Translations under genes and position numbers: made by a program
Notes under the pieces: generated by a model
What the model saw: the letters and a program-made list of their open reading frames with translations, nothing else
What the model was told of the DNA's origin: nothing
Databases searched by the model: none
Shown: in pieces, positions 33,285-62,287 of the stretch
Layout of the letters: every line of letters starts with the position of its first letter
Numbering within the stretch: the first letter of the stretch is position 1
DNA from: Norana najaformis
Lineage: Eukaryota > Annelida > Clitellata > Crassiclitellata > Hormogastridae
Assembly (NCBI GenBank): GCA_964023275.1
Contig: OZ029913.1
Location: 56,297,358 to 56,361,357, forward strand
Length of the DNA: 64,000 bases
Direction of reading: 5' to 3'

Positions 33285-33351
33285 AACAACTGGTCGTTGA
33301 TTTGCGCGTCAGTTCAACATTGTGTGGATGCAACGTTCTTGCAAGAATAAG
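33285..33351 (+). other. Predicted 5' UTR exon of copy 3
   Basis: The segment ends in aataag followed by gtagga (donor at 33352). The next acceptor is ttctgcag ending at 33588, directly before the ATG. The same exon and donor occur in copy 4 (ending 52543). The 5' boundary is estimated from the TATA box only. Confidence 0.5.
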
Positions 33352-33588: not shown

Positions 33589-36500
33589 ATGTCTGCAAGA
33601 CTTTTTCTGAGCATCCTGTTTGCAGCGCTCTGCTGTGAATCAAATGGGTATCCAAGGTTTCAAGAACAGATTCCCAACGGAGACAAGGTACCGAATCCAT
33701 GCAATCGGTCGACGATTTGGCCTGGAGTCGGACACCAAAGCACTTACGGGTCAGGTCCACGAAATCCATTCGGACTGGACTTCGAGGCAAACGAAAAAGT
33801 AAGTAAATTTTTAATTAAGATTTTGATTTAAAATAGTTATGATTTAGTTTGATTCATATTTAAATTTAAATTACTCTTGATAAAATATTTATAAAAGAAA
33901 TTTTACAGAATTTTGATATAATAATTCGCAGTACTTTACCTTTGTTATAACTTAACCTTATCCTTATATAATTTTAACAGAATTTTTGTCTCAATTTGTA
34001 AAGCATCTTGCGTATAGCAGCTTGATGCTGGTGATGATCCCTCTGGCAGTGAAATTAAGCAATGCTGAGTCTGGTTAGTTCTTGGTGTGTACTCTATCCA
34101 TGAAGCTTGCATTCTTTTTCTGCTTCGTCTAGGATTCAAGTTCTAGGGCATCATGTGAATTCAGCAATTAGGTTTGAGGTTTTTTGGGATCGATCATCAC
34201 AAGGGAAATAGATATTAGCACTTTCCAATGGCATGCAATTGCTTAAACATTCTTTCTAATTCCAATTATTGACATCTGCTAGATCTGGGACAGGACACTT
34301 TGCAAGAAGGATTCAGATGGAGACGGACTGACTAATGGCCAAGAGTTGGGTGACCCAAATTGCACTTGGTCACAAGGAAGCACTCCTACGTTCAGCACCA
34401 ACCTCTCCCATCCAGGTTTTATGAACATTTAATTACATTTAATAGACATTTTCATCCTTGTTTGTCAAGTCTTCCTATCACCAGTGTGAATAGTCAATAT
34501 CTTTTATTCTCGTACCTTGATAAACCTACTAAAACAAAAGATATGATTTTAACACTAAGAATTAATATTCAAATAAGGTTTAAAGAGTAGATAAGCTGTA
34601 TTATTTTCAGTATTAGGCCTACTTTAATTATTATTACATAGGCATTTAAGTTTAAAGGGCCTACAACATGGGCTGTTACGAACTCGCTCAGTCACGTGGA
34701 TACGCTTGAAGGAACACTAGTTTAAGTCCTACCCTAAATGAATTGATTTCATGCTGGTGTTTACGGTTTTCAGGAAGTAGGCTAAATCAGGCAGATAACT
34801 GTGCAACTGCACAACATTGTGAACCACACCTTGTAATCAAAATTGTAATCAAAAATTCATAAAGCGCCACTTCGAGGTAAACTCCTCAGAGGAACTCCCG
34901 GCCCTACAACACAGAAGCACTGGGAAATAAGAAGGTCTTCAAAGCTTGCGGAAAAGAGGGGGAAATAGACCTAGAAGTCTACACTGTCTATTTCTCGCTT
35001 ATTGAATGTGGAATGTAAACCAAGAGATTTATGATATAATGACCAAGAAAGTGTTCAGTTAGTTCTATATTCGACTGGCTCTCAGAGAAATGAAATTTCT
35101 AAGAATCTTTGGCACGAAGTATTGAACGTTTGCGAGTGCACAATAATTAAATGTTTAGCGAGCTAAACTGTCGAACAGAGCAGTCGGGATTCAATATCCG
35201 ACTAGAACAGAAACATATTTTGAGATTTCTGCTTCTTTTGTGATATCTAGCAAACTCAGCTATAAAATTAATACATTGACTTTCATTGCCGGTTTAAAAA
35301 GCGCCGGAAAGGAAAATCTTGCCATCCCCCCTCATAAATCGAGGATAAGAAAAATGAAGTCGCAACCATTTCAAATTGATGTTTGCCTCGGATTTGCTTA
35401 AGAGACTGATTCTTTTTCTTGTCTTCATTGTTCTTCATCATCATTTTCTTCTTCTTTTCTTCTTCTCCTCTTCCTTTTCTTCCTGCTTTTTCAAAACTCC
35501 ACGAAAACACTTTTGATCTTGGCTTAATGATTATGTTTGTGATACAGAGGGTCTATTATGCGGAAAGAATACCATCGTTGCTTGTTCCACATTGCATCAC
35601 ATTTTACACTATGACTCAAAGATTTTTTTAATAAGTCACATTGCTGATCGCTGATGCCACCGTCCGTAAATACAGAAGAAATGTAAATTGATGACCTTGA
35701 CAATTGTCTATTGTTCCCTTTTGGTTCAACCACTGATACCACGCATCAAAGTCATTGATAATAGCGTGCAATCTTTAAATTTGGTTGTGAATTGAGTCCA
35801 GGAATCTTTCTGAATGTTACAGGAATCTGTGAGCCACTTGGTTCGTCTCAGTGCTCAGGAAAGAACTCTTGGCTGATGAACTGTAGTCCTGGAAAAATGA
35901 ATTGTCCGGCAGTAATACAACCAGGTAAAACTATAGCATACATTAATTACAATCTTCGTCATAGGCCTACTTATCTCTTTCAGAACTCCACTCTATATAT
36001 TGACCCCACATCGTTGTTGGAATTCACTTATTAAAGTTCAAGACATTTGATTAAGAACCTCGTTTAGATAAAGCAACTAGGCCTACTTGTAGCATATATG
36101 TATGGCGAACATTCTGGAAGTCTACATTACTATGTTGTTTTCTGAAGAGAGTAGGCCCCTACATGCAGTTCTTCGTTTGTACCACTTTTTCACCTAACTG
36201 GCGTTTAATACATATATGTTACATGTAATTCTAGCCGTTACTCATATAACTTAGCACGAAAATCAGAATAGTAGACTATTGAGTTATGTTACTCTAAGTC
36301 CACTTAGTTGAAAAATCAACCTCATAATCAATATATCCTGCCTCAGGTTAACATGAGCTACGTTATGAATAGTCTACCTTATCTACAAGCTCCCTATAAG
36401 ACGCTGTAGTTGTGGATTATATTGCTTTATGTCCATGAATTTGGATAGTATTTTAAAACTATAGGGATACAAGTCTGCATCCGATAGTATATACCACTTT

Positions 36501-39500
36501 ATGTCACGTGCATGGTCAATGTAGCCACGATTAAATAACGTCTGATTATTTTATACGCACCATGATGAGAACGTCGCTTTAGTTTGTGACTGCTCATTCG
36601 CTAGAAGAACCCGCTTATTCCTCGGCTAAACTCATTCTCACAAGTCTTTTCACTACCCGCCACTTAGGGGTGATCTGTGTTACAGTGTAGCTCTGCGGAA
36701 TTTGTTAATTCAGCAAACACGAGATCAAGCGCCAAATTGCAATCGCCAGATCCTACATGACCTCTCTGGATAAAAACACCCACATTCTACTATTGAGCGG
36801 AATGCCAAAATTGCAGCTCCATAAACTGCACGTGTTGTCACTTTCTTGTACAGTTGCGAGACTTGAACTAGCACACAGGCCCTCCGTAATAATCTCAACA
36901 TCTTGACATATACAGCCTCAGGAGAGGAATCCCTACACGGACCGTGGCAGCAAAGGGGAGGTTAATAGGAGAACTATCACTCTCCTGGTATCTGCCACAG
37001 TAACGAAAACTAAATTTCTTTGGGCAGAAACTGAGAGCCTTATGGACAACAATAAACAAGGTCCCAAGGTATTGGAGGAGCCCATGCTGTTGACCTAAAC
37101 CACATAGACTAGAGTCGTGTAAAAAGATCTGACGCAATTAAATAACGACCTTAATAACAGCTGGAAAGAGCTAGACAGATCAGCTTGTTGGTCTATCAAT
37201 TATGCGCCCTATCGGTAGTGCAATCTAGCGATTGCGTAATCGACCATACTTAGAGACTCCCTCTAGCGACCTTATACTTTTTACCTTATAGACATTTGCT
37301 GTGGTTGGTCCCGCTTTTTGGAAATGGCTTCCTAATGACCAACGCCAGGAATTTTTTAGTCCTAGAATTTCCCAGTTTCTCCCCCCTCTTTTCCGCAAGC
37401 GCTTGTAAACCTTTTCCCCCAGTGCTTCTGGATTGTCGTAAGGGGAGCGCCTCTGAGGAATCTATCTTGAAGTGGCGCTTTATAAATTTTCGATTACATT
37501 ACATTACATTATACAAGATTTTACTGCACACATGCCGCTGTCATCAAGGAGTATAATTTGGTTTGTTTATGATAAGAAGCCTAAGTGATGCACCAGCCTT
37601 GTGTTCACCATCTTTGGATTCGTTCACTATCGACTCATCAGTTGAAGAGTAAGAAATGGGAGTCTCCCCTACGTTCCATTAGGGATATGGAGGAATTACT
37701 TTGGTATGGTTCAATTCCTACTGACGATCTTTGAATTAAAGTGGCAGGTGAAAAACTGGTCTGTTAGCAGTAAGACGTATTGCTACCATGGAGCTTGATG
37801 GACTTATCTCTCCATAATATTATTCCATATCTGCATAAAACTAGACTATATTATGGTGATAAAGTTTCATTGAACGTTCCCTAATTCCAAGTAGTACAGT
37901 CCAAGCTAAAAGAATATGGCTTTAATTGCACTCTATCCACGTTTAACACGTCACAAGATATTTGAAAATATTGCCACAATTTGCTTAGTTTTCACTTTTC
38001 TTTACCATACAGTAGATAGAGGCGGTACAGTATAATTTTAAGTCAAATTCTCGCAATTAAATTGTTCTCTTGACACATCTGGGAAGTATTTGATATCACA
38101 CAGCACCATGTCCATAAAATATTCAACCCTGCCGCAATTATGTCAAAATTATTCGTAGGCCTCCTAGGTTAAAATTATAATCAAATTGATCAAAAATCGT
38201 AAACAACAGTATTGTTCAAAATATTTTAATTAGATTGCTACAAATGAAGCAGGAAAAAGATTTGCGACAGAAAATGAAAAAATCGTTTTTCTCAGTTTTG
38301 TAAAATGTGGACATAGCCGAATGCAATATAATTCTGTGGGCGCTACATATAGGCTCATACTCGCTGAAATATGAAATATGTTCGTTTCTGCACTCTGTTC
38401 GATGCCTCTGAAACAAAGGTTCGAGGTATCTCGATTGACAAAGAATGCGATGATATATGACATAATTATATAGGTCACTTCATAGGAAGTCCAGCATATC
38501 TGAATTCTGTGTCGTCTGTCAACTGGATGAGAATCCGATTGATGGGCTAAATATGCGTGCCGGAGCTCGCCAGAGGTCACTTTTCTTGTTGTCTGAGCAT
38601 TGCATACTAACTGATGAGCTTTCTATTCTTGATGACAGTTAATGTCGTTCTCAGGCTAGCTTGGAGAACATCTTTGTTTGGTTTCACTGAAATGGCGCTG
38701 TATGAATATTCCTAATTATAAATAAAAATTACTCATTACAAGTCAACGTGCTTCGGAAGAAAGTTATCGAGATATGATAACACTGTATGATAATTCTGTA
38801 GGCGTTCTAAACTACACGATGCGAATTCCTGTGACGCCTGTCCCCACTGAAGAGACGACGTACATCTGCCATCGATTCACTTTACCCAACGACTCCGTGG
38901 CTGATATTATAGCCATCGAACCAGTCATCGACAACGCACTTGTAATGCACCACAAGGCGATCTACGGATGCAAAACTGAACCACAGGGTAACTTACAACA
39001 ACATGGAGAAAATATAAGTAGAAAATCAGTATATTGAAAAGCAATCAAAATCAATAACCGTTGAAACAGGATTTTAAAAATGTGTAAAGCACCCAGTAAC
39101 TTCCCACTCACAAATGCATGTACGTTACAACGTGAACACAACTGCGCACGTAGGGACGTAAATATTTTGGCCTGAAGGACTTCCATAATAAAAGAGATAC
39201 ACTTGCTCGTGACTATGGCGTCTTGGGGAAGGGCGGCGACTCAAGCAGCATAGGAAGAGTGTTTGTAGCAGCTGATCTCAGAGCTAGTAAATACTTAGCT
39301 GGCCGGGTTAGCGCTGTCGCTTCAGCGTTAACATTAATATCTGCCACCGTTGTGGAACTGGCGTTGGTGATTACAGGATGCAGGCTTCAATATAGAAGAG
39401 TTGACTTTGATTTTGATTTTGCCAGGCAGCCACATGCATTTGGAATCATTTTTATTGAATCTTCGTCCAGCTCATCACTTTTATAAATCTTTGGATTGCA

Positions 39501-42500
39501 AGAATCAACTTCAAGCTAGATGAAATTTGTGCAATGTTTCAGATCATCAAGCAAACGAATCGTTTGAGTGTGCAAAGGGCGGCGGGCCGTATTGTACGTC
39601 ATTGCTTGGATTCTGGGGAGTTGAATCCGTTGGCCAATGTCTCGACAGCCAGCTTGGATTCAGAATTGGAGCAGGTGGTTTCAAGTATGTAATCGTACAG
39701 GTAAGCAAAACCGGTGATATGCGCAAGGAATTCGATATTTAAACGTGTTTTTACTGTATGAGCTCTTCATATCTCTTAAAGCTTTGCAATTCTTTCAACA
39801 GCTTACTTTGTAAGGCTTTTCAATACTTCTAAATCTTTTCTTACTTTTAAGTGCATGCAGAGGTACATAGCAAATTGGAGGGAAGCGGAAGGGTACCAGT
39901 CCAAACAAACTACATTATTTCAGGGATTTCAATTTCAGGGATTTCAATTTCAGGGATTTCAATTTTCATATTTCTGTCATTACTATTTAAATAGTAGAAA
40001 TGTAGAAACAAAGAAAACAAGTGGGAGTGGCATGTATATCTGACAAAGTACGAGAAGCCAGGTTGAGATGGTATGGTCATGTGAAGAGGAGAGAGGAGTA
40101 AAGCTGCATTGAAAGAATTATGTCAGCAGAGGTTTATGGACGCGGCAGTCGGGGACGACAAATGAAGAGATAGGGAGACGTGAATCAGCAAGACTAACGC
40201 TCCTCAGACTGAAGATAGACAACACTGGCGTTAGAAACAAAAAGAAAAATAAAGATTAGTGTGACTGTTCATTCCCTAGGAGGGATTAATCCAAGGCAGA
40301 GGGAGAGGAAGACTGTGAAAACAATTAACACATGTTACAGTTATACAAGTTGCAGTTACCCAAAGGACGAGCAAATCACGAATATTGGGTCCAATTAATA
40401 AACTTCACAACAGGATGATCTGCATTGACTTTTTATTCCGTGTGAGATATATAGGAAATTCTTAATGCAAATTGCTTGGCGCTTGCTCTCATCGACTGAA
40501 GTGTGGCAGTAGATATTGTTGCTATGTTAATATAACAAATAGCGAAATAAATATTTTCGAATTCGTTTGATAGAGATTGGCATGATTACGCCCTTTTTTT
40601 AACACTGAACATAATTTTATCCTCATCATAAACGTTAATTTGCATACATCAATAAACTGTTGGAACAAGGACTTTGTAGCGATCCTCCCTTTAATTCGTG
40701 TTTCTATTTGGTTGAACTAAGCTAAGAATAGCTTACTTACCTACTTGCAGTAGTTTAATGTAGTTTGTAGTAGTAGATTTGTGTATAGAGGCTGTAATTG
40801 GTATAGTTCAGTAGGCAGGCCAACAGATGAGTAAGGTGGGATGAGTTGGACGGGGCAGACTTACCTGGAAATTCCTCCTGGTAAAAGCTAGATTTTAGGA
40901 CACGGCCAACTTAAGTAAAAAATGGGCTTAATAAATTGTATGGGACTATGCCACGTCAGCATCGGCGGATTATAGCCTACATGACGATTTCACAAAGGAT
41001 TAATCTGATATGACAGAGCAGATTTGAAAATTGAACATGGGCTGATGTCACGAGCAAACGACAATGGTAATGGACGGTTGGCAAAGGTCATGCGCAGATC
41101 AGCGATGACGGTTGGCGGCAATTGAAGACCAAACGAACTTTTACGGTATAAGAAGAGGTTTCCTGAGTTCAGTCAAAGAGCTACATGACGTCAAACAATT
41201 TCTTGTGTGTTAGTCCTTTTTCAGGCTATAAATCCACTTATCTTCAAGCAAACATGTCGCCTATTAATCCGCTACAAGGCATATATGTGAAAATCGATAT
41301 TGATAATAACTTTCGGTCTGCGTTGTGACAAGTAACAGTGATAGATTCATACAAAAGTAATTGTACAAATTGTTGGTGTTCAGAATTGTGGCCCTAATTT
41401 CATTCCAGCGCTGTCTATTTAGGGCGACAAGGTCTGCCATTAGCGTCTGTACCCCAATTCAACTTCTTCCGATGTCCCTGTGTTAGAATTATTGGCAGGA
41501 TTAGAATTTCAAATGCCATGACTCAAGTGTTTGATTTTCACAATGGTGTGAGATTCATTGTTAAGCTACTGTTTCACCTGTTTGCAGCTTCACTGGAACA
41601 ATCCGGGACATAAAATGAATCTTACAGACTCTTCTGGAATGAGGATCTACTACACAACCAATCTCCGTCCCTATGCAGGTGGAATGGCTTGGATGGGACA
41701 GACTTACCTGGAAATTCCTCCTGGTCAGAAAGAAGTGACGATAACGGGCACTTGCACTTCCGCATGTACAAAGAAACTGCCGCAGTCCTTCTTTTTAACT
41801 AACGCCATGCTTCACATGCATAAAACAGGTAAATATTTTCAGCGATGTAAATATGTACATCCTTAAATTAAATGAGATAGAATATGTTTCTTGATACATC
41901 TTAACAAAACTGCATATTTAAATAGGATTAGAAGACGGCGACAGAAGAGAAACTTTTTAATCGTAATCGTATTCGTAATCTCGAGATTTCTAAAGCTAAG
42001 TCGCGGGAACTAGCTAACTCACAGGCGCTCAGTCAAAACAAAATCGCTAGGCAAAAGGGTTCGGTTCCAGGTCAAGTTCCAGGAGTCAGGCAGTCAGACA
42101 GTTGGACGGGTAAGTTAAAGGTAAGTTTTAGGGCAAGTTAAGATAAATTTAGCCAATCCTGAACGAGGTAAGAGATGAATGACTGCGTTTCAGATCATCA
42201 CAGTCCGCCGATGTCTTCCTACAAGCAACTAATGGTAACACTGGCGATCCGGCATTTCAGGTTGCTGCCCACCTGAGTGGAACAGCCTGATGGCATTTAT
42301 TCAGGAGATCGAAAGTGTTCGCGCTTTTAAATACATCATGACAACAATTCGTCTTTAAATCCGATTAGAAGACGGTGACATAAGAGAAACTCGGTAGGGT
42401 TAGGGTTAAGGTAAAGTTAGCCAATGTTTGATGAAGTAAGACAAGATTGACTTCGCTTGGCGAACAACATAGTCTACGGATTGCAAAAAAATGAAAATTG

Positions 42501-44805
42501 TACACGTTTTTGTATAGCGACCGTATGGCCTCGAATCTATCTGGTGAGATCCTTCACCACCGCTACACGCCATTTAAGGTCCCGGTTCACGGACCGTGAT
42601 AGCCCGAGATTCAAATCTCTGAAGTAAGCCACGACCGGGACGCGAACCGGGGATCCTCACGTACAGTGGCTTCCTTGGCATACGCGCTTACCGATGCAGC
42701 TAACTTATTGCCAGCAGCTATGGCTACAACTGTTGATCGGGCCTTTCAGGTTGCTGCCCACGTGAGTGGAGCAACCTTACGGCATCTATTCAGGAGACCG
42801 AAAATGTTCGTGCTTTGAATTAAAACCACTGAAATTATATATATTATGTAAGTCTTAGCTCTGACTCCAACGACTGACCCAGTGAAGCACCCTAGAAATA
42901 GCTCATTACTTACTGTGCGATACAAAGAGTCATCATGATATCTCATGACACTGATGTTACAAAGTCAAGATAAGAGACGATTGCAAAGACAAAGAAACGT
43001 TTACACACATCTATGAGCAACATTCCTCAGATTTTCATCATGCGATTATTTGTTTTCTACAGCAGAAAATTTCCTCAAAATTACTCTTATAAAAATTTCG
43101 ATTGTCGCACGTTATCATCTTCAGTTTTTTCCAGAAAATTCTACACGTAAATAAAACTTCAAGTGAAAAACTTTATGCATTATGTATTTTTCTCATAGAA
43201 TTTATACCAATGACCATGTTTGGTGTTGCCTGTTGTTACGATCTTGTATGCGCCTCAACAACTGAATCTTTTCTGATTCTTCACATTACTGTTATTCTCA
43301 GCTCATAATTACACAGATCTATATTATACGGATTATAATAGTTTTTTTTCAGAAATATGTGTATATGAATCCGTTTAAAATCAACGTTCAAGTTTGTCAG
43401 TGTTGTATTTGTGTAATTGAAGTAAGCACATAATGGTGAAATCCCGATGCTTTGATGACTGTGGTCATCCTAATCATTCCTGAAGCTGCCTTTTCTTTTG
43501 TAGGGAAGTCTGGTGACATCCGCTTGAATCGCAATGGAAAACTATTGCAAATACTCGACAACGTTACTGAATTCGAATTCGACACTGCAAAATTCATTGA
43601 GTATGTATTCAGAGCTACTCAAAAGCGTTTAATCGATGATCGCTCCTAAGAAAGCTCGCATTCGAACAAAATGAACAGAACGAATGAGATCCATGAGACA
43701 GGCAACATAGGAGGATAAGCAATCTCAACAAGATGGATATAGGATCAACATGGTATAAGCTAGTTCCACAGCCAACTTAAAATTTAGTAGTCGTCAAGTA
43801 ACGATTGCACATGAAGTAACAATGTCCTGACTAGTGACACATTTTACCCTTAGTCGGTTAGTCAACTGAACAGTTTTACAGCACCCTCAAAGTTCTTTCA
43901 GAAGGCGTTTCTTGCTTTTCTTAATTATGTTTGCGAATGGTGAAAGACGCAGCGTAGGTATATCCATCAGACCATTGGGTCTGGGTAGAACAGACATTCG
44001 TCAATGGCCGACCGAATGATCGAAGTACCTATACACAGTTGTCGGTCGACGCCGTCTTTCTCTTCCTCGCCGTAGCATCACCGAATCTTAGATCATGATG
44101 ATCTGACAGTCGCTGTATAGCATGACAATATATAAAGTGTTCCTATTGCATTATAGCGAAAATAAATAAATTCACGAGTCTGGAAGACGTGAACATGTCT
44201 TTTTAATATAGGTCGAAAATGAATCAGCTTTTTGGTCTCAATCTTTCAGGTTTGAGAATCCAATTGAAGTGAAACCGGGAGACGAAATCGAACTAAAATG
44301 CGTCTACCAGTCGACCCAAAGGAATTCGACAACTTACTTCGGAGTTTCGAGCTCCGAAGAGATGTGCTATGGCTTCCTCACTTACTACCCGCTATTTGAA
44401 GCAGTCGAGTTCTGTGGTCAATGGAAAAGCATCGGTTATTGCAACAGATATGAAGACATTCATTTCGAAGCCTGCGACTTAAGCACTTTCATAAAGCTTC
44501 TCGGCTTACTTCAGTACACATGTACTGAGAATTGCACGTCGACCGCTTGTGCTTTAATCACCGATGGGATGTACGCCACCGGATGCCCCAACTACCCAGA
44601 TGTGAATACATATATTTCCACTTTCATATCCAACTATTCTAGAATATTCGAGAAGTGTGCATTGGAAAGGCCATACAATCCAACATCCACATCACAACGC
44701 CCAGTTTGTCTAGATCCCATTCGTTCCTCTAGCCAAGGTATTTCCATGGGTTTTGGCTTCGTACTCTCCCTAATGGCTTATGCTGCCTACCACGAATCTA
44801 TTTAA
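33589..44805 (+). CDS. Temptin-copper type II monooxygenase fusion, copy 3 (intact)
   Basis: Eight exons: 33589-33798, 34283-34415, 35823-35924, 38803-38988, 39543-39700, 41588-41828, 43504-43600, 44250-44805; 1683 nt, 560 aa, open throughout. Residues 1-20 are a signal peptide (LFLSILFAALC). Exons 1-3 (about 21-148) are a temptin-like module: IPNGDKVPNPC, GVGH, NPFGLDF, DSDGDGLTNG, ICEPLGSSQC. Exons 4-8 are the PHM/DBH/MOXD1-type core with all expected copper ligands: H198/H199, H265 (QLHWNNP), H339/H341 (HMHKTG) and M414 (EEMC). The usual Met after the His pair is Lys (MHHK). Several N-glycosylation sequons, a Ser/Thr/Pro stalk and a hydrophobic C-terminus suggest a secreted, possibly GPI-anchored enzyme; this copy ends in HESI after the hydrophobic stretch. 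Such enzymes hydroxylate small amines or peptide C-termini using copper and ascorbate; the substrate is unknown. Exon 4 donor gtaact is weak. Confidence 0.87.
35150..35480 (+). repeat. tRNA-derived SINE in intron 2 of copy 3
   Basis: B-box-like gggattcaatatcc, then ttctgcttctttt, and a body block gcgccggaaaggaaaatcttg followed by gaggataagaaaaatgaa that matches the SINE body at 17990-18070. The 3' part is a CTT-rich run. Confidence 0.65.
36700..37180 (+). mobile_element. LINE relic in intron 3 of copy 3
   Basis: Paralogue of the relics in intron 3 of copies 1, 2 and 4, shorter than in copy 4. Confidence 0.55.
37268..37515 (+). mobile_element. LINE (CR1/L2-type) 3' end in intron 3 of copy 3
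   Basis: A frame reads AVVGPAFWKWLPNDQRQ and ends LKWR, as at the C-terminus of CR1/L2-type ORF2, followed by gcgctttataaattttcg and a TTACA tandem tail. The same 3' motif ends the LINE at 10422-11831. Absent from the other copies. Confidence 0.65.
39919..39966. repeat. 15-bp minisatellite, three units
   Basis: Three copies of a unit containing cagggatttcaattt within intron 5 of copy 3; other copies have a single unit. Confidence 0.85.
40020..40290 (+). mobile_element. LINE C-terminal relic (RTE-like) in intron 5 of copy 3
   Basis: Paralogue of 22970-23245, with more frameshifts. Confidence 0.6.
40658..41197 (+). mobile_element. Possible solo-LTR-like insertion in intron 5 of copy 3
   Basis: A 540-bp segment absent from copies 2 and 4 starts TGTTGG and ends CAAACA, and has a TATA-like gtataagaag 50 bp before its end. 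No clear target-site duplication is seen, so the LTR reading is tentative. It contains a 48-bp piece matching exon 6. Confidence 0.35.
40835..40882 (+). other. Duplicated exon 6 fragment inside intron 5
   Basis: About 48 bp match the middle of exon 6 (the GQTYLEIPPG-coding part at 41675-41732), including an identical 20-bp run within the shared cagacttacctgg to cctcctggt region. It has no splice sites of its own. Confidence 0.75.
42490..42706 (-). repeat. tRNA-derived SINE in intron 6 of copy 3
   Basis: On the minus strand an A box (tagctgcatcgg, 42702-42691) and a B box (ggttcgcgtcc, 42648-42638) form a tRNA-like head; the body runs to 42490 and matches 1090-1240. The copy 2 intron (about 24505) is continuous here, so it is an insertion. 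Confidence 0.7.
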
Positions 44806-44912
44806 GATTGCTTATTTATTCAAAAGACTAAATTACAGGGACTTCTTTTGTAATTATCTAGCACATAAATCATTTACCCAAGTTATAACAAACATTTTAT
44901 GAGAATGTGAGC

Positions 44913-44918
44913 AATAAA
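44913..44918 (+). terminator. Polyadenylation signal of copy 3
   Basis: AATAAA 108 bp after the stop; equivalent signals are at 26789-26794 and 62403-62408. Confidence 0.65.
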
Positions 44919-45579
44919 AATCTGTCGGATCCTCATTCAACGGATTCTCAAAAATTCGTGTTATTATTATTCTTATTATAATTATTATTACTTTTATAAG
45001 CAGTAGTCGTAGTACTATTAGTATTAGTATTAGTAGCAGTAGATGATGATTATGGTTGCGTTGCATCTTCGACAACTCCTTTACTTCTCCTCCTCGTCTT
45101 TGTAGTCAACGAGAGGAACCAAATGTGTCAACTTCAACTTAACCTTGAAAATGATGATGATGTTGACTTGATCCTGGGGCTGGTGATTAAAGGATAACAA
45201 TTACAATATGATAATGATTTTATGATTATGTTGATGATGGTGATGACTTAACTATAAATATGATATCCAACATAGGAGAAGGCTATGAGTCTATAATGAT
45301 GGGGCTAGAAGAAAATTTAACAACATCGAAGACATTCGACATTACTCTGATTTGCAGGGTATGAATTAGTCTAAATTATTTTTGTACAATCTTGATTTTA
45401 ACCAATATTGTCTGGACTGCACCTGAATTGTACATTTTCCTCATTTCCTTCTGATGCAGTGTTTATGCATCCATACTCATGCCTACGCGAATGTTCATCA
45501 AGCCACAGAGCCCTTCATTGAAACTTAAATTATTTTACTTCGAAACTACCAGCAAGCAAATACCGCTTCAAACAACTAA

Positions 45580-46123: not shown

Positions 46124-46550
46124 ATGCCGATCATTCAACACGTTGTACTATGCACAAAAGAAGCATGGGCCTGTGACATGCTTGTTTTTGACCTTTTTCT
46201 TATCGGCATATTCACAACATGGTAAAAAAATATTGTCATGCTAATTCAATGTATATATACATAATTTGTATATACAAAGCAAATACATATTATGGGCCAC
46301 ATTCTTATATTTAATGACTTTGCAAAGTTTAGACAACATATTTGAATTGATTGCCGCATACAAATCGTTCTAACAATACACGCACGTGAATAGAATGTAT
46401 GTACTGCAAAGACGCGATATAACGTTGATATTGATAAAGTAAAATAAGTGATGATGACTCGAAAATTATTACGAGCTTTGTATGCCACCCGAAGCACTTT
46501 GATGTCTATAGTCAACTTATTAATTCCTAAAGCTACCGTTGGTTTTGTTG

Positions 46551-47590: not shown

Positions 47591-49604
47591 ACGCTATATG
47601 ATCGGACATTGATTCAAAAGATTAAATTTTTAGAATTGCTTTCGTGATTAACTTTATATCACACATAGATAATTTCGTTTTGACAAGAGTTACAACAAAC
47701 ATTATAGAGAATGTGAACGTTACAATTTTAAAATTTTCTGAGCGCCTGATCATTCTGATTTTCAGCTCTTCCTGTTAAAAATCAGATTCAACATTCATAG
47801 GTTTATCATGAGAACAAAGAATTATTTAGGCTGTATGTGGATTTTTGTTTTAAACGTATATATGATTTGGTTTGTGTTAGTTTAGACAACACACTTGGGT
47901 TCAGATGTTTGATGGTGGACAAGTTGCTTGCTTTACAAAAGTTTAAAGGTCAACATATACTACTACAGGATATCTTAAAACCATGAGCAATGACGACGGC
48001 ACAGTTTTGAGAATGGAAGCCAAGTTAGGGATTTCAGAGGGGGCGAAGTCCTTGTGGTATTTCCTGGTCGCAAATCAATTTTGATGCTATTAATGGGTGA
48101 TGGAAAAATTTCTATATCTTGTAGCAGCGAAACGATTTTTAAGTATATAAGTATCTGACCAGGGAATTGCATTTCAAAGTATACTTATGCATATGTTTCT
48201 TCACCGGGGTTCGAGACGGAGAGTTAAGTTTACACCAACGACAGGCAGATCGATCGAAAGTCAGGAGCACTTCAAAGCCGATGGTGGGTATGCTGTATAT
48301 TTGGTTGACAATGCGATCAAACGACGAACCTTTAAGCAACGTCCATCGTACATGCATAAGCTACCATATACTTTGCGGTCAAACCTGCAGAAAAAACTTT
48401 GCGCTGAGAGGTCATATAACACGAAGAATTGTCATCAGATTACAAGCGAAATGAATGCGAAACCTGCAAATAGATAAATACGTTGATGCATTAAATTTAT
48501 TTTACAGGTTGGTCATAGAATATCTAAACGAGCTCCTTATGCATCACGACTATCGAGAAATGTTCGGGAACATGTTGAGCCTTAGAGCGACCAGCGTAAG
48601 CTGTGTATGCAGGCAATTCACATGACAACTGCGAATTGGAAATGTTACCTATAGATAAATATAAATATAATCACTCGCTTATTCACTATGATCTAAGAGA
48701 ATTTTGCATACAAATGCATTGAAGCGAAAGCTTTTTAGTGATGAGACTAGAAGCAAATTAGGAATTCACCTAGCTTCGCCGATGGCTTAAGATTTCGCGT
48801 CAGACCGCTTCGTGCCAAACTCAGAATAATTAACTTATTAAATTAAACACAATTAAATTAAACTCAGAACAGAACTCATAATAGATATGCCGACGGACGA
48901 TCGGACCAATCGACGGCAATAGCACAACGCATCGAAATGCTGCAAAGTATAGTAGGCTCAATAATGCACTCGCACAGCAGCCACAAAAAAACTTTTGGTC
49001 TAAACTTGAAGTCTGATAAAACTTCATATTTAGGCACGTTCACCAAGACATATACATATGAGTAACTATGTATTAATATAAGAAAATTTGAGCAAGTGTG
49101 AAAAGTTATGGTAGGCCTATATATCTATATGTATGCAAGAACGTATTCATGATCCTCATAAACAAAGCGCTACAACATGATTATCTAGCAGTTAAAAAAG
49201 GGTGAGAGTTCGAATTTTAAGTAGAAGATTGTTCAAGAAGAAAGTTCATATATAGTGCAGTTGCCATAAAGTGGGCCTACTAGACAACAATCGATGCTTT
49301 GTATAATATGATATATATGCATTGTATAATAACATAATTTATATATACATAACAGATACAGTCTATGGGCTACATTTTTATATGCTACGACTTTGCAAAA
49401 TTCAGACAACATGTTTATTCCGATTGTCGCATTCAAAACTAATCTAAAAATAAACTCACGTGAATGGAATGTGAGCACTGAAAAGGCGAGGCACAATGGG
49501 TCACGGTGACTCGAAAATTTGTTATGATATTCATACGCCATCCCAAAGTACGTAGAAAAAGTTGCAAACATTGTCCACCGTTGAAAAAACCAAAAAATGA
49601 ATAA

Positions 49605-49735
49605 CTGAAGGAACGATCGAACGATTGGACGAACGAATGAACAAAAACGAACCAATGAACCGCGAACTCAGGTGAGTGCAAGTGAACAATTGAATTAATA
49701 GGCGGCGAAGAAGTGAACGAACGAACACTAGAAAA
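49605..49735. repeat. Degenerate (GAAC/GAAT)n repeat
   Basis: Paralogue of 16560-16690. Confidence 0.75.
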
Positions 49736-49879
49736 CCTAACTTTTATGATTGTTATATTGATCACAAATTTGTTAAGTGCTTTTTTCACATGCACTGTCT
49801 TTTTATACGCCGAGGTTTGGTGATGGCTTTGATAGCTAATGCGATTTTGTTATTTATATATATTTGTTTCGTCTTTATG

Positions 49880-49906
49880 TTATATATATATATATATATA
49901 TATATA
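49880..49906. repeat. (TA)n microsatellite
   Basis: About 13 TA units. Confidence 0.95.
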
Positions 49907-50635
49907 GCAGATACAGTTTTTGGTCTCATGAGCTAAGTCACAGAAGCGTGACGCTATGCTTAAAGTGTGCATTAGTACACTCGACTTATCCACAATAACT
50001 AAGGTTTTTGAGAATTCAGTAGTGTGACTGGACAGATTAGCATTTGGACAGACAGGAATTTGGTCGATCTGTTGCTGCTAGCAATATTTTCTGTAAAGTA
50101 AGACTACTGTGAAAATCTATTCGCCAAAGTTCACGAGTTGCAGATGTTGCTGCCGGCGAAAAATCAAACTACGAAGTGTAGCAATCGAAAGTAGACAGAA
50201 CAGGCCAAGCTATGAACGCCCAACTTCAGGGAGCAGCCAACACAGTTTAAGTTCGTCCACACAATGATATTCGCCAAAAATGACTTACTTTGGACCATTT
50301 CCTCCACTTGTCCGCATGTGCTCACAATTGTTATTACCTTCCTCATCCATTTGCGGGCGTGTGCACTACAGCTGAGCACTAAGGCCTAGATTAGGCTGTC
50401 TTTTAATCCTGCACGTCTAACGGTTCTGAGGGGTGGGTTATTTTGATACTTCCGCATCCAGCAAAGATTTTAAACAGCTCCCACGCAACACAGACTGCTC
50501 TCTGACTGCAGTTGGTGTTTATCCAAACGCTGTGCTGAAATATCTGTATGTACCAAATTACACGCGGAAGTCCTCATTGGGTTATACCCCCCTTGTTGAC
50601 AGTGTTTCAAATGCGTCATTTGAAAGGATGCCAAC

Positions 50636-51175: not shown

Positions 51176-51245
51176 CATAGGATCGCATAGCATATCATGA
51201 CATAATATAACTTAACAAAGCATAGCATAATTTAGCAGAGCATGA
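51176..51245. repeat. Degenerate (GCATA)n repeat
   Basis: Paralogue of 18390-18455. Confidence 0.75.
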
Positions 51246-52447: not shown

Positions 52448-52456
52448 TATAAAAAG
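52448..52456 (+). promoter_or_regulatory. TATA box of copy 4
   Basis: TATAAAAAG in the same context as copy 3. A small indel lies just upstream. The matching 5' UTR exon ends at 52543 (aag|gtagga). Confidence 0.65.
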
Positions 52457-52781
52457 TCGTCTCTTTTAAGTTCTGAAACAACTGGTCGTTGATTTGCACG
52501 TCAGTTCAACATTGTGTGGATGCAACGTTCTTGCAAGAATAAGGTAGGATATTTCGCTGGTTGACAATTTACTTGAGTGAATATTTTTTATGTTGAACGA
52601 GGTTGAGTGATCTTACTTCTGATTGCAGCTTGTTTTTAGTGCGCCATCGGTTGATGCCCTGTGCATTTATACACCGGAGCCACAGAAATTGATAATTATT
52701 ACTAATAAATCCAACGTGATTTCTCTAGATGTATGTTACAGTTGCATATCTAAAACCCGTGTCTTTGATTATTTTCTGCAG

Positions 52782-55700
52782 ATGTCTGTAAGACTTTTTC
52801 TGAGCCTCCTGTTTGCAGCGCTCTGCTGTGAATCAAATGGGTATCCAAGGTTTCAAGAACAGATTCCCAACGGAGACAAGGTACCGAACCCGTGCAATCG
52901 GTCGACCATTTGGCCAGGAGTCGGACACCAAAGCACTTACGGGTCAGGTCCACGAAATCCATTCGGACTAGACTTCGAGGCAAACGAAAAAGTAAGTGAA
53001 TTTTTTAATTAAGATTTTGATTTAAAATAGTTCTGATTTAGTTTGATTCATATTTAAATTTAAATTACTCTTGATATAATATTTATAAAAGAAATTTTAC
53101 AGAATTTTGACATAATAATTCGCAGTACTTTACCTTTGTTATAACTTAACCTTATCCTCATATAATTTTAACAGCATTTTTGTCTCAATTTTAAAAGCAT
53201 CTTGCGTATAGCAGCTTGATGCTCGTGATGATCCCTCTGGCAGTGAAATTAAGCATTGCTGAGTCTGGTTAGTTCTTGGAGTGCACTCTATCCATGAAGC
53301 TTGCATTCTTTTTCTGCTTCGTCTAGGATTCAAGTTCTAGGGCATCATTTGAATTCAGCAATTAGGTTTTGGGTTTATTTTCGGGAATCGATCATCACAC
53401 GGGAAATAGATATTAGCACTTTCCAACGGCATGCAATTGCTTAAACATTCTTTCTAATTTCTATCATTGACACTTGCTAGATCTGGAACAGGACACTTTG
53501 CAAGAAGGATTCAGATGGAGACGGACTGACTAATGGTCAGGAGTTGGGTGACCCAAACTGCACTTGGTCACAAGGAAGCACTCCTACGTTCAGCATCAAC
53601 CTCTCCCATCCAGGTTTTATTCACATTTCATTATATTTAATTAACAATTGCATCCTTGTTTGTCAAGGCTTCCTGTCACCAGTGTGAATAGTCAGTGTCT
53701 TTTATTCTCGTTTCTCGATAGAGATTGGTGATATTATGACCAAGGAAATGTTGAGTTAGTTCTATAGTTGACTGGTTCTCACAGAAGTGAAATTTCATAG
53801 AATGTTTGGCACGTGGCATTGAAATTTTGCGAGTACACAATAATCAAATGCTTAGCAAGCTAAAATGTCACCAGAGCAGTCGGGATTCAAAATCTGACTA
53901 GAACAGAAAAATATTTTGAGATTTCTGCTTCTCTTGCAATATCTAGCAAACTCAGCTAAAAAATTAGTTCATTAACTGTACATTGCCGGTTTTAAAAAGC
54001 GACAGTAAGGAAAATCTTGGCCACCCATCCTTATATATCGAGGATAAGAAAAATGACGTCGCAACCATTTCAAATATATGTTTGCGCTGGATTCGCTTAA
54101 GAGACTGATTCTTTCTCTTGCCTCCGTTGTTCATCATCATCATTTTCCTCTTCTTCTTCACCTTCTTCTTCTCATCCTTTTCTTCCTCCACCTTTTTCAA
54201 AACTCCATGAAAGCATTTTTGATCTTGGCTTAATGATTATGTATGTGATGCAGTGGGTCTATTATGCGGAAAGAATACCACCTTTGCTTGTTCCATATTG
54301 CATCACATTTTACACAATGACTCAAAGATTTTTTAATAAGTCACATTACTGATCGCTGATGCCACCGTCCGTAAATACAGAAGAAATGTAGAAATTGATG
54401 ACCTTGCCTGAAGGAATTTGTTCCCTTTTGGTTCAACCACTGATACCACGCATCAAAGTCATTGATTGAAACGTGCAATCTTTATATTTGGATGTGAATT
54501 GAGTCCATGAATCTTTCTGAATGTTAAAGGAATATGTGAACCACTTGGTTCGTCTCACTGCTCAGCAAAGAACTCTTGGCTGAACAGCTGTAGTCCGAAG
54601 AAACTGAATTGTCCGGCAGTAACTGAACCAGGTAAACCTATAACAGACATTAATTACAAACTGCGTTATATCTAAGTCATTGTTATTATATCAAAGCAAA
54701 AGAATATTAAAAGTTGTTAAACAATGCAAAGTAGATTTATCAGATAATCAAGGTATATATTATGTGATTGAGACAAAACAAATCATAGGCCTACTTATCT
54801 CTTTCAGAACTCCATTCTATATATAGATCCCACATCGTTGTTGGAATTCACTAAATAAAGTTCAAGACATTTGATTAAGGATCTCGTTTATTAAAGCAAC
54901 TAGGTCTACTTGTCGCATACATGTATAACAAACATTCTGCAAGTCTATATTACTATATTGTTTTCTGAAGAGAGTAGGCCCCTACATGCATTTCTCCGAC
55001 TGTACCACTTGTTCAAATAAATGGCGTATAATATATTACATATAATTCTACCAGTTACCCACATATCTTTGTAGCACTAAACTTAATATAGTAGGCAATT
55101 GAATTATGTTACTCTCTTCATTGAAAAATCAACCTCATTATCAATGCATCCTGGCTCAGGCTTACATTAGCTATTCGCTGTATTTGAGGATTATATTGCT
55201 ATATGTCCATGAATCTGCATAGTATATTAAAACTATAGGGACACAAGTGTGCATCAAATGTATATATCACTTTATGTCACGTGCTTGGTCAATGTAACCA
55301 CGATTAAATAACGTCTGATTACATTGTACGCACCCTGATGAGAACGTCGCTTTGGTTTGTGACTACTCATTCGCTAGAAGATCCCGCTTATTTTGCAGCT
55401 AACCTCATTGTTATAAAATCTTTTCACTATCCGCCACTTAGGTATGATCTGTGTCACAGCGCAGCTCTGCCCAATTTTGAGGCAGTTCCACTGGATCAAA
55501 TAATGGACTAGCGCTGCGTTTTGGTATGATCGTTGCCGATGCTGGACAGAAGGTCCTCAGTGACCAGGAATAAGCAGTTGATGCCTAATTGCTGGAGTGG
55601 ATGGCAGAGATGTTGCGCCTGGCACTGTAAACGTCGGGCAAGGAGGCCTTCAGTCTGAAGATGAACTAGAAAACTAAGATCCAGACCATTGCATATTGCT

Positions 55701-58700
55701 TGCCAGTCCAGTTACTGCATATGATATGGATGTCCCCAAATATCTACGTAGCCAAACAGTGAGTGCCCAGCTGATTCAGCAAACACAAGATCAAGCGCCA
55801 AATTGCAATAGCCAGATCCTACATGACCTCTCTGGATAAAAACACCCACATTCTACTATTGAGCGGAATACCAAAATTGCAGCTCCATAAACTGCACGTG
55901 CTGCCACTACTCTTGTACAGTTGCAAGACTTGAACTCGCAGACAGGCCCTCAGTAAGAATTGCAACATCTTTGACATGTTCATCCTCAGGAAGAATCTAC
56001 GAAATCCCTACACAGACCGTGACAGCAACGAGGAGGTTCATAGGAGAACTATCATTCTCCTGGTGTCTGCCACAGTAACGCAAACTAAATTTCTTTGGGC
56101 AGAAACTGAGAACCACTGAAGAACCTTATTGATCACAATGAGCAGCTCCCGAGGGATTGGAGAAGACCATGCGGTTGACCTTACCACATATACTAGAGTC
56201 GTGAAAAAACGATCTGACACCCTTGAACATCGACCTTAATAACAGCTTCAAAGAGCTCGATGGATCAGCCTGTCGGCCCTCTATCATTTATGTGGCCCAT
56301 CGGTAGCTGAATCTAGCGATTGTGTAATCGACCATACTCAGGGACTCCATCTAGCGACCTTATACAAAATTTTTCTGCACAACATACTAGTAGTAGTAGT
56401 TACAATGTTTAAAACAGCTTATGGCATCAAAGGCCGTTGGCAGCGCCCTCCTCTTTTTATCCAGTCTTTGGACTGGCACTATCCCGAAAAAGTCAGTGGC
56501 AAAGTTAAACATGCACAACTTGCTGCTGTCATCAGGGAGTATAATTTGGTTTCGGCTTATGATGAGAAGCCTACGCAAGTTCTGTGATGCACCGGCCTCG
56601 TCTTCAGCGTCTTTGGATTCGTTCACTCAGGACTCAGTGGTTGAAGAGTATGAAGTCGGAGCTTCCCCTGCGTTCCTTTATGGATATGGAAGAATTTGTT
56701 ATGGTTCAATCCACTCTGAAGGTCTTTGAATTGAAGTGACAGGTGAAAAACTGGTCTGTTAGCAGTAAGACGTATTGCTACCATGGAGCTTGATGGACTT
56801 ATCTCTCCATAATATTATTCCATATCTGCATAAAACTAGACTATATTATGGTGATAAAGTTTCATTGTACGTTCCCTAATTCCAAGTAGTACAGTTCAAG
56901 CTAAAAGAACATGGCTTTAATTGCACTCTATCCACGTTTAACACGTCACAAGATATTTGAAAATATTGCCACAATTTGCTTAGTTTTCACTTTTCTTTAC
57001 CATAGATAGAGGCGGTACAGTATAATTTTGAGTCAAATTCTCGCAATTATATTGTTCTCTTGACACATCTGGGACGTGTTTGATATCACACAGCACCATG
57101 TCCATAAAATATTCAACCCTGTCGCAATTATGTCAAAATTATTCGTAGGCCTCCTAGGTTAAAATTATAATCAAATTGATCAAAAATCGTAAACAACAGT
57201 ATTGTTCAAAATATTTTAATTAGATTGCTACAAATGAAGCAGGAAAAAGATTTGCGACAGAAAATGAAAAAATCGTTTTTCTCAGTTTTGTAAAATGTGG
57301 ACATAGCCGAATGCAATATAATTCTGTGGGCGCTACATATAGGCTCATACTCGCTGAAATATGAAATATGTTCGTTTCTGCACTCTGTTCGATGCCTCTG
57401 AAACAAAGGTTCGAGGTACCTCGATTGACAAAGAATGCGATGATATATGACATAATTATATAGGTCACTTCATAGGAAGTCCAGCATATCTGAATTCTGT
57501 GTCGTCTGTCAACTGGATGAGAATCCGTTTGATGGGCTAAATATGCGTGCCGGAGCTCGCCAGAGGTCACTTTTCTTGTTATCTGAGCATTGCATGCTAG
57601 CCGATGAGCTTTCTGTTCTTGATGACAGTTAATGCCGTTTTTAGGTTAGCTTCGAGAGCAGCTTTGTTTAGTTCCTCTGAAATGGCGCTGTATGAGTTCC
57701 CAATTACAGTAAAAAAATTACACATTACAAGTCAACGTGCTTCGGAAGAAAGTTATCAAGATATGATGACATAGTATGATAATTCTGTAGGCGTTCGAAA
57801 CTACACGATGCGATTTCCTGTGACGTCTGTCCCCACCAAAGAGACGACGTACATCTGCCATCGATTCACTTTACCAAACGACTCCGTGGCTGATATTATA
57901 GCCATTGAACCAGTCATCGACAACGCACTTGTAATGCACCACAAGGCGATCTACGGATGCCCAAATGAACCACAGGGTAAGGTACAAACAACACAGATAA
58001 AACATAAGTAGAAAATCAGCATATTCAAAAACAATCTCAATCAAAAGCCATTCAAAAAGTATTTTAAAAATGTGTAAAGCACACAGTAACTTCCCACTCA
58101 TAAATGCATGTACTGTACGTTACAACGTGAACACAATTGCACAAGTAGGGATGTAAACATTTTGGCCTGAAGTACCTCCATAATAAGAGACACACACGTG
58201 TTTGTGAAATTTATGGAATGTTTCAGATCATCCAGCAAGCGAATCTTTTGAGTGTGAAATGGGCGGCGGGCCATATTGTACGTCATTGATTGGATTCTGG
58301 GGAGTTGATTCCGTTGGCCATTGTCTCAAAAGCCAGTTTGGATTCAGAATTGGACCAGGTGGTTTCAAGTATGCAATCATACAGGTAAGCACAACCGGTG
58401 ATACACGCAAGGAAATCGATATTTAAACTTTTGTTTTCAAGTGTGAGCTCTTCATATATCTTAAAGCTTTGCAATACTTTCAACAGCTTACTTTGTAAAG
58501 CTTTACAATACTTCTAAATCTTTTCTTACTTTAATGTGCATGCAGATATATAGACAAAATAAGAGGGAAGCGGTAAGATTACTAGTACAAACTATATTAT
58601 TTCATGGAATCCAACTTTTATATTTCTATCATTATTATTTAAATAATATGGATGTAAAAACAAAGAACATAAGTGGGAGTGGCATGTATATCTAACAAAG

Positions 58701-61700
58701 TACGAGAAGCCAAGTTGAGGTGGTATGGTCATGTGATGAAGAGAGAGGAGGAAAACTGCACTGAAAGAATTATGACAGCAGAGGTTTACGGACGCGGCAG
58801 TCGGAGACGACAAATGAAGAGATGGGAAGATGTAATTAATGTAATGTATGTAATGTAATGTAACAAACACTTATATAGCGCTCTTCAAGTATCTCTCAAA
58901 GCGCTGATGACACGGCTATCCCACCGATCTAAACAAGTGCGTTTTCAAGTTAACAGAGAATGAATGTTGAATTAAACAAAGTGGAAAAGTACGAATGTTT
59001 AAAGGGAGACTGTTCCAGAACGAGGGACCAAAAATGATTCAGCAAGACCTAAAGTTCCTCAGACTGAAGAAAGTAGATACTGGAGACAAAAACAAATGGA
59101 AAAGAAGGACTAGTGTGGCTGACCCCTCCCTAGGAGGGATTAATTCCAGCCAGAAGAAAAGAAAGAGATGTAAAAACAGAGCACACAAGTTACAGTTATA
59201 CAAGTTGCAGTTCTTTAAAGGAGGTGCAGGGCATGAAAATTGGGTCCAATTAATAAATTTCATAGCAGGATCATCTGCAGTGGCATTTTATTCCGCTGCC
59301 TTTTTAGGGCGACAAGGTCTGGCGTTGGCGTCTGTACATCAATTCAATTTCTTCCGACGTCCCTGTGTTAGAATTATTGGCAGGATTAGAATTTTATATG
59401 GCATGACTCGAAGTGTTTGATTTTCACACTCGTGTGAGATTCATTGTTAAGCTAATGCTTCATCTATTTGCAGCTTCACTGGAACAATCCGGAACACATA
59501 ATGAATCTCACGGACTCTTCAGGAATGAGGATCTACTACACTACCAAGCTCCGTCCCAATGGAGGTGGGGTCGCAATGATGGGGCAGACTTACCTGGAAA
59601 TTCCTCCTGGTCAGAAGGAAGTGACGTTAACGGGCACCTGCACTTCCTTGTGTACAAAGAAACTGCCGCAGTCCTTCTTCTTAACTTCCGCCTTCATTCA
59701 CATGCATAAAACAGGTAAATATTTTCAGCGATGTAAATATGTACATCCCAAAAATTAATTGAGATAGATTGCTTCTTGTTACATCTTAACAACACTACGT
59801 ATTTAAATCTAATTAGAAGACGGCGACAGGAGATGGAAAGAGTTCGCGCTTTCAATTAAAAACCACTGAAATTATATCTATTATGTAAGTCTGACGCTGA
59901 CAGTGAAGCACCCTAGAAATAGTTCGTTACATACAATTCTGCGTAAAGAGTCATCATGGTATCTCATGGCACTGATGTTAAAAAGTCAAGACAAGAAACG
60001 AGTATGAGACAAAGAATCATTTATATATATTATATATATATATATATCTGTAAGCAACATTCCTCAGATTTTCATCCTGCAATTGTGAGTTTTCTGCCTC
60101 AAGAAATATCCCCACAAGTTCCCTTTTAAACTTTCGATTGTGGCTCCCTATCATCTTTAGCTTTCCCAGAAATCTACACGTGCAAAACACTTGAACTGAA
60201 AAACTTTGTGGATTATGTATTTTTCTCATAGAATTTATACCCATGACCATGTTCAGTGTTGCCTGTTGTTGCGATCTTGTACGCGCCTCAACAACTAAAT
60301 CTTTCTGATTCTTCACATTATTGTTATACTCAGCTCGTAGTTACACAGGTTGCTGCAAGTTCGTCTAGAGGTAGTAACAAACACCCGCAGTAGTCTTAAA
60401 ATGGCATATATTTACAAGCAAACAGACTCTCGAGAACACAGAAAACGGCCACAGCGGTCCAACGAACATCCGATTCTGGACAAGACACAGCGTCCACTTC
60501 ACAGAAAAAGGTCATCCACGACGGGAGACAGGATCAACTTCAAAACTGTTTTCAAAACGAGCACCCTCAAAAGAAAATCTCCGGAGTCCGGCCACTGAAC
60601 ACAGCAACACGACCAACAGGGTCAAACCAGAAACCGGAGTGACCTTAATTCACACTCGCGCCTATTTATAGGCTGGAGTTCACGCCGGAAAAGGGACACT
60701 CCTATTCTAATATCTGTTGCGGATGGCACTTGCAGGCGGCATTCTAGCCTACCCGCCCACGCGTGCCACCCCGCAACAAGGTATATATTAAACAGATTAT
60801 AATCGTTTTTTACCTTTCGGATATCGTGACTATGAATCAGTTTAAAAATCAACGTTCAAGTTTGTCAGTGTTGTATTTGTGTAATTGAAGTAAGCACATA
60901 ATGGTGAAATCCCGATGCTTTGATGACTGTGGTCATCCTAATCATTCCTAAAGCTGCCTTTTCTTTTGTAGGGAAGTCTGGTGACATCCGCTTGAATCGC
61001 AATGGAAACCTATTGCAAATACTCGACAACGTTACTGATTACGACTTCAACACGGCAAAAATGATCGAGTATGTATTAAGAGCCACTCAAAAGTATTTAA
61101 TCCATGTTTGCTCCTAAGCAATATCGCATTCTAACAACATACATAATACACTAAACAGAACGAATGAGATCCATGAGACATCTGAGACCATAAGACAGGC
61201 AACATAGGAGGATAAGCAATCTCAATAAGATGGATGTAGGATCGATATGGTATAAGCTAGTTCCATAGCCAACTTAAAATTTAGTAGTCGTAAGGTAACG
61301 ATTGCACATGAAGTAACATTGTCCTAACTAGTGACACATTTTACCCTTAGTTGGTTAGTCAACTGAACATTTTTATAGCACCCTCAAAATTCTTCCAGAA
61401 GGCGTTCTTGCTTTTCTTAATGATGCTTGTGTTCGCGAATGGTGGAAGACGCAGCGTATATGTATCCATCAGACCATTGGGTCTGGGTAGAACAGGCATT
61501 CCTCAATAACCCGACCTAATGATCGAAGTACCTATACACAGTTGTCGGTCGACGCCGTCTTTCTCTTCCTCGCCGTAGCATCACCGAATCTTAGATCATG
61601 ATGATCTGACAGTCGCTGTATAGCATGACAATATATAAAGTGTTCCTATTGCATTATAGCGAAAATAAATAAATTCACGAGTCTGGAAGACGTGAACATG

Positions 61701-62287
61701 TCTTTTTAATATAGGTCGAAAATGAATCAGCTTTTTGGTCTCAATCTTTCAGGTTTGAGAATCCAATTGAAGTGAAACCGGGAGACGAAATCGAACTAAA
61801 ATGCGTCTACCAGTCGACCCAAAGGAATTCGACAACTTACTTCGGAGTTTCGAGCTCCGAAGAGATGTGCTACGGCTTCTTCGCTTATTATCCGCTACTT
61901 AAAGGAGTCGAGTTCTGTGGTCAATGGAAAAGCATCAGCTCTTGCAGCAGAAATGGAGACATTCAGTTGAAAGCATGCGACTTAAGCACTTTCATAAAGC
62001 TTCTCGGCTTACTTCAGTACACATGTACTGAGAATTGCACATCGGCCCCTTGTGCTTTAATCATTGATGGGATGTACGCCACCAGATGTCAAAACTACCC
62101 GGATGTGAAGTCATATATTGCCACTTTCATACAGGACAATGCTAAAATATTCGAGAAGTGCGCATTGGAGAGGCCATTCAAACAACCATCCACACCACAA
62201 TGCCCCGTCAGCAATTCCTCTGGCCAAAGTACCTCCTTTGGTGTTGTCTTCGTACTCACCGTAATAGCTTATGCTAGCTACTACTAA
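52782..62287 (+). CDS. Temptin-copper type II monooxygenase fusion, copy 4 (intact)
   Basis: Eight exons: 52782-52991, 53481-53613, 54530-54631, 57791-57976, 58227-58384, 59474-59714, 60972-61068, 61753-62287; 1662 nt, 553 aa, open throughout, with exon phases identical to copy 3. Signal peptide MSVRLFLSLLFAALC, temptin module (exons 1-3), then the PHM/DBH-like core with ligands H198/H199 (again followed by Lys), H265, H339/H341 and M414. Sequons include NLT, NVT, NST and NCT. The C-terminus is a short Thr/Pro stretch and a hydrophobic tail ending SYY, which fits a GPI signal better than copy 3. The exon 3 acceptor is ttaaag rather than ttacag. Intron 5 is shorter than in copies 1-3 and holds younger insertions. 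Expected to be secreted; substrate unknown. No peptidyl-alpha-lyase domain is fused, so it is not a complete bifunctional PAM, and no DOMON domain is seen. Confidence 0.87.
53870..54115 (+). repeat. tRNA-derived SINE in intron 2 of copy 4
   Basis: Same insertion as 35150-35480, with gggattcaaaatctgac at the B-box position and the gaggataagaaaaatgac body block. Confidence 0.65.
55480..56260 (+). mobile_element. LINE relic in intron 3 of copy 4 (longest copy)
   Basis: Degraded frames include EAFSLKMN and KTKIQTIAYC, later RSYMTSLDKN, then NIFDMFILRKNLRNPYTDRD followed by EEVHRRT. The order fits the region from the RT palm end to the C-terminus of a non-LTR element. Confidence 0.6.
58676..59155 (+). 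mobile_element. LINE C-terminal relic (RTE-like) split by a later insertion
   Basis: 58676-58836 reads KLRWYGHVMKREE, RIMTAEVYGRG and RRRQMKRWEDV; the text resumes at 59035 with IQQDLKFLRLKK and WKRRTSVADPS. The 198 bp between them have TAATG tandem units on the left and a block with tatagcgctcttcaa and ctcaaagcgct. Confidence 0.7.
58837..59034 (+). repeat. Short insertion with TAATG tandem end
   Basis: Absent from the paralogous relics in copies 2 and 3. The tatagcgctcttc...ctcaaagcgct pattern resembles short interspersed repeats, but I cannot name the family. Confidence 0.5.
60024..60048. repeat. (TA)n microsatellite
   Basis: About 12 TA units in intron 6 of copy 4. Confidence 0.85.
60352..60778 (+). 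mobile_element. Solo LTR in intron 6 of copy 4
   Basis: The 427-bp insertion starts TGCTGC and ends GCAACA (TG...CA), and is flanked by a 4-bp duplication AGGT (60348-60351 and 60779-60782). Intron 6 of copy 2 has cacaggtata with no insertion. A TATA-like tatttataggc lies at about 60663. A 4-5 bp duplication fits a Ty3/gypsy or BEL-type LTR retrotransposon. No internal coding part is present. Confidence 0.75.

Follow-up and report, generated by a model that had tools for sequence, protein, structure and literature searches.

Tandem copies of a putative temptin/DBH-like monooxygenase hybrid gene in the annelid Norana najaformis

Described hybrids and the Norana locus

The closest described relatives of the locus treated here were published in 2009 as a 'Temptin/mono-oxygenase hybrid gene' from Pomatoceros, Aplysia and Lottia, which its authors called a lophotrochozoan synapomorphy. 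The Pomatoceros evidence was an entire, fully sequenced annelid expressed sequence tag (EST) clone with both parts (PMC2762978; this paper, like the others cited below, was accessible in part, and what is said of them applies to those parts). In Pomatoceros lamarckii GQ381308, the Aplysia DBH-like protein AAY42041 and the Lottia model, an N-terminal temptin is followed by PF01082 and PF03712, so that temptin stands where the DBH-like family has DOMON (PMC2762978). The same arrangement was found in copies 3 and 4 of a gene array in Norana najaformis, located in a stretch of 64,000 nucleotides (hereafter the window; assembly GCA_964023275.1, contig OZ029913.1, positions 56,297,358 to 56,361,357). 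The likeness was drawn from the published description, not from an alignment, and the Norana locus differs from the published hybrids in being a tandem array with broken copies. A previous sequence-only reading of this stretch had left open how widely such a fusion was described; the 2009 publication, with its annelid clone, supplies the precedent. With regard to family and architecture, copies 3 and 4 are very probably tandem-duplicated new members of the known temptin/DBH-like hybrid family.

Gene structure and domains of the intact-looking copies

Exons were located by means of reading frames and self-comparison, and were then spliced. This gave two intact-looking tandem genes, copy 3 (33589-44805) and copy 4 (52782-62287), with eight coding exons each (Table 1) and products of 574 and 567 residues, respectively, when the exons were joined at splice sites. 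All 14 introns are GT-AG by choice of sites, and the real test is therefore that phases were consistent across the eight exons of both copies and that no stop arose. The boundaries 33589 and 62287 of the sequence-only reading were right, and its eight exons with consistent phases were rebuilt; its product lengths of 553 and 560 residues were not recovered, thus its splice sites must differ from ours in places. Both products begin with a signal-peptide-like N-terminus. An acceptor-like sequence lies directly before the start codon in both copies (ttttctgcag in copy 3), so an upstream non-coding exon is possible. A start of exon 4 upstream of its conserved acceptor was ruled out by an in-frame stop at that place in copy 4.

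Pfam searches placed Temptin_C at residues 19-116 (profile positions 2-98 of 98) with E-values of 1e-38 in copy 3 and 1.6e-38 in copy 4, Cu2_monooxygen (PF01082) at residues 155-271 (6.1e-18 and 1.1e-17), and Cu2_monoox_C (PF03712) from residue 295 (9.2e-23 and 4.6e-22). All three were above the curated cut-offs in both products, and the matches are far beyond chance. DOMON (PF03351) gave no match up to an E-value of 0.01 in either product, and a match to the bacterial TSP3 repeat at the DSDGDG motif was below its cut-off. A complete temptin-like module had been assigned to exons 1-3; the module is indeed present, but the match falls almost wholly within exons 1 and 2, while exon 3 contributes a stretch rich in cysteines downstream of it. 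Aplysia temptin shares the Temptin_C family name and domain (it was compared by domain, not by its own sequence), and differs in being a single 10.9-kDa secreted product with no enzyme attached (PMC3484142).

Compared with solved structures, copy 3 was closest to DBH (PDB 4zel; E-value 6.8e-31, 93 of 305 aligned residues identical), with PHM (PDB 1opm; 1.6e-21) as the next, and the core previously termed PHM/DBH-type could be narrowed to DBH-like. All six copper ligands claimed for the core were present in copy 3 (H198, H199, H265, H339, H341 and M428, aligning to DBH H262, H263, H333, H412, H414 and M487), and copy 4 has the same six. The DBH ligand numbers are those which we take to be the correct ones, and their offset puts the cysteines of the DBH structure paper onto cysteines. 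That paper (PMC4846438) provided the numbering of the core cysteines, and 9 of the 9 checked were kept in copy 3. Beside having temptin and no DOMON, copy 3 differs from DBH in its C-terminal region, which did not align past the core. PHM shares the copper core and ligands but is the weaker match, and the residues of copy 3 aligned to PHM R240, N316 and Y318, presumably peptide-binding, are M337, Y430 and F432. Since these positions are replaced, peptide amidation seems unlikely, and with a DBH-like core an assay on glycine-extended peptides, as once proposed, becomes less promising. The three residue names are absent from the accessible part of PMC6123673, in which the equivalent PHM copper ligands are named.

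The temptin and monooxygenase exons were best read as parts of one gene. When the frame of exon 4 was followed upstream, a stop turned up 7 to 27 codons away in all four copies, and the open stretch in between held nothing signal-peptide-like by eye in any of them. The acceptor end of exon 4, ttctgtag (its last eight bases), is identical in 4/4 copies. Exon 3 read into the intron gave tails that differ in the three copies where it is present. Within intron 3 of copy 3, 10 of the 11 plus-strand open reading frames (ORFs) of at least 40 amino acids were scanned and showed no DOMON match up to an E-value of 1; one of these ten had a sub-threshold bHLH match. Taken together, the closed frame before exon 4, the varying exon 3 tails, the absence of DOMON matches from the scanned intron 3 ORFs of copy 3 and the annelid EST clone make a single gene by far the best reading of the sequence. 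A temptin-only isoform made by read-through of exon 3 was set aside, as its tails differ in 3/3 copies.

Proposed mechanism and alternative roles

The product is probably a secreted or GPI-anchored (glycosylphosphatidylinositol-anchored) DBH-like hydroxylase in which temptin replaces DOMON. The intact products would enter the secretory pathway and would probably be either GPI-anchored or released. The temptin module, at the position of DOMON in DBH, probably docks the enzyme onto a partner or matrix, and the two-copper core would use ascorbate and oxygen to hydroxylate a small substrate, as DBH does. Beyond the observed gene structure, domains and copper ligands, the steps from transcription through anchoring and docking to activity and substrate are what we infer, and we hold docking plus hydroxylation to be about evenly balanced between right and wrong. 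A secreted or GPI-anchored temptin-monooxygenase had been suggested before, and this fits the signal-peptide-like start and the hydrophobic tail, which hydropathy placed directly ahead of the stop in all five loci.

Several points weigh against such an enzyme, and the divergence between the two copies is the first of them. Copies 3 and 4 agree at 474 of 567 aligned residues, with an overall ratio of replacement to silent change (dN/dS) of 0.60 in a Nei-Gojobori-type count. By part, the ratio rose from 0.29 in temptin (bootstrap range 0.12-0.64) to 0.58 in the copper core (0.37-0.97) and 0.98 in the C-terminal region (0.53-2.10), each based on a small number of replacement changes (14 to 51.5 per part). 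Temptin is thus constrained and the copper core only moderately, and no constraint emerged for the C-terminal region; the latter two values imply weak constraint beyond the temptin part, and decay of one copy may be under way. Secondly, copper ligands alone are no proof of activity. Thirdly, with regard to GPI anchoring, the tail of copy 3 ends in polar HESI. Finally, the single transcript favoured by gene structure is a prediction, and a shorter, non-secreted core may start at the ATGs of exon 4 or, in 3/4 copies, of the stretch before it.

Alternative roles were weighed against the literature. An enzyme of shell matrix or mantle, modifying matrix components in biomineralisation, is possible, though somewhat unlikely. 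A Haliotis laevigata protein entered under the name 'Similar to tyramine beta-hydroxylase/temptin' and carrying a signal peptide occurred in 6/6 nacre versus 0/4 prismatic fractions, but the accessible listing is silent on a monooxygenase core and reports a disordered C-terminus (PMC6003135). Temptins have been linked to shell formation in the accessible literature, while a zebra mussel report, in its accessible part, does not mention a monooxygenase. In the literature examined, the shell-matrix role is backed at least as well as a pheromone role. The latter, in which the enzyme would make or present a water-borne chemical signal and temptin would be the part belonging to the pheromone complex, takes up the chemical-signal suggestion of the sequence-only reading; it is compatible with the architecture, and we consider it unlikely. 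Temptin is reportedly the 'glue' of the attractin complex, according to the title of one paper known from reference lists. The data in favour, as far as the sources were accessible, concern temptin proteins and not the fusion; no feature of the window hints at the release of a pheromone, and the tail suggests anchorage in a membrane. In Biomphalaria under schistosome infection, DBH-like monooxygenases and a temptin-like gene respond as separate entries (PMC5685644). A quite improbable further reading takes the array as a rapidly changing group of surface enzymes: temptin would anchor a pheromone or matrix complex, the core would produce a small hydroxylated signal in the same place, and the C-terminal regions, with dN/dS near 1, would diverge to change partner or substrate.

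The weakest alternative, that adjacent temptin and monooxygenase genes were wrongly merged into one model, could draw on the existence of temptin-only proteins, the long intron 3 (2.9 kb in copy 3) and ATGs inside exon 4 and, in 3/4 copies, just before it, yet with the frame closed ahead of exon 4 and no signal-peptide-like start there in 4/4 copies, unconserved exon 3 tails in 3/3 copies and an EST clone of a relative joining both parts (PMC2762978), it is extremely improbable.

The tandem array and its surroundings

The tandem array proposed earlier was recovered: two copies look functional, while copies 1 and 2 and a 3' remnant are broken. Copies 3 and 4 are close duplicates, 78-92% identical by block in the self-comparison from 32663 to 45042. 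In copy 1, exons 6 and 8 each have a broken frame as well as an in-frame stop. Copy 2 has one in-frame stop in exon 6 and one in exon 8, and one of its copper-ligand histidines is changed to tyrosine; its homology to copy 3 starts inside intron 3. In its exon 8, a 9-bp tandem repeat at 26515-26583 extends a Thr-Pro-Ser run by 18 residues relative to copies 3 and 4. Exon 8 of the remnant and its 3' flank were closest to copy 1 (79.9% over 3.7 kb, 14007-17629 versus 47077-50621), and this 3.7-kb block suggests duplication units larger than one gene. The exon 7 part of the remnant (46497-46679) was closest to copy 2 (84.2%), and the remnant is thus a mosaic, formed through recombination or conversion.

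Table 1. Positions of array members, exons and other features in the window.
Feature	Start	End	Strand	Remarks
Copy 1	4121	14526	+	full or partial matches to 8/8 exons; broken
Copy 2	21791	26673	+	exons 4-8 only; broken
Copy 3 exon 1	33589	33798	+	signal-peptide-like start, first part of temptin module
Copy 3 exon 2	34283	34415	+	remaining temptin module, DSDGDG motif
Copy 3 exon 3	35823	35924	+	final Temptin_C match residues (match end at residue 116), Cys-rich linker
Copy 3 exon 4	38802	38987	+	beginning of copper domain 1, with ligands H198 and H199
Copy 3 exon 5	39543	39700	+	copper domain 1
Exon 6 fragment, 49 bp	40834	40882	+	within copy 3 intron 5
Copy 3 exon 6	41588	41828	+	ligands H265, H339, H341
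Copy 3 exon 7	43504	43604	+	copper domain 2
Copy 3 exon 8	44212	44805	+	ligand M428, C-terminal Cys-rich region, hydrophobic GPI-type tail, stop
3' remnant	46550	47590	+	exon 7 plus a portion of exon 8; contains stops
Copy 4 exon 1	52782	52991	+	splice-site reconstruction
Copy 4 exon 2	53481	53613	+	splice-site reconstruction
Copy 4 exon 3	54530	54631	+	splice-site reconstruction; acceptor ttaaag weaker than that of copy 3
Copy 4 exon 4	57791	57976	+	splice-site reconstruction
Copy 4 exon 5	58227	58384	+	splice-site reconstruction
Copy 4 exon 6	59474	59714	+	splice-site reconstruction
Copy 4 exon 7	60972	61072	+	splice-site reconstruction
Copy 4 exon 8	61715	62287	+	splice-site reconstruction
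Long single ORF	1335	3275	-	Pfam: Mab-21 nucleotidyltransferase and HhH/H2TH-like domains, E 6.5e-12 and 1.7e-11
Transposase fragment	29610	30020	-	DDE_Tnp_1_7 family, E 1.2e-07
Transposon-like piece	45887	46078	+	presumably a decayed Tc1/mariner transposase end, judged by a motif
ORF	63211	63861	+	zinc-finger-associated (zf-AD) match below cut-off, E 0.0012

The surroundings of the array contain a Mab-21 ORF, of a family which we take to include cGAS-like proteins, as well as transposase pieces. A minus-strand ORF overlapping the Tc1/mariner-like piece had no Pfam match, the scan there covering the minus strand, and Rfam gave no match at gathering scores within the window. Bacterial or archaeal relatives were not confirmed among 128 pattern matches, a weak test based on two short peptide patterns. 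The literature searched yielded no papers linking temptin with tandem gene duplication, or albumen gland with copper type II. In a further search, PMC2762978 was the one paper with temptin among the 20 listed of 8,095, and other papers joining temptin and monooxygenase may exist. A supposed link of copper monooxygenases with the snail 'developmentally regulated albumen gland protein' did not hold, as the accessible literature gives LBP/BPI. A tested function of the hybrid was not met with in the accessible temptin literature, and may still be in print. The kinds of protein known are unchanged by this array; to a family in print since 2009, it adds exon structure, tandem duplication, copy decay and per-domain constraint.
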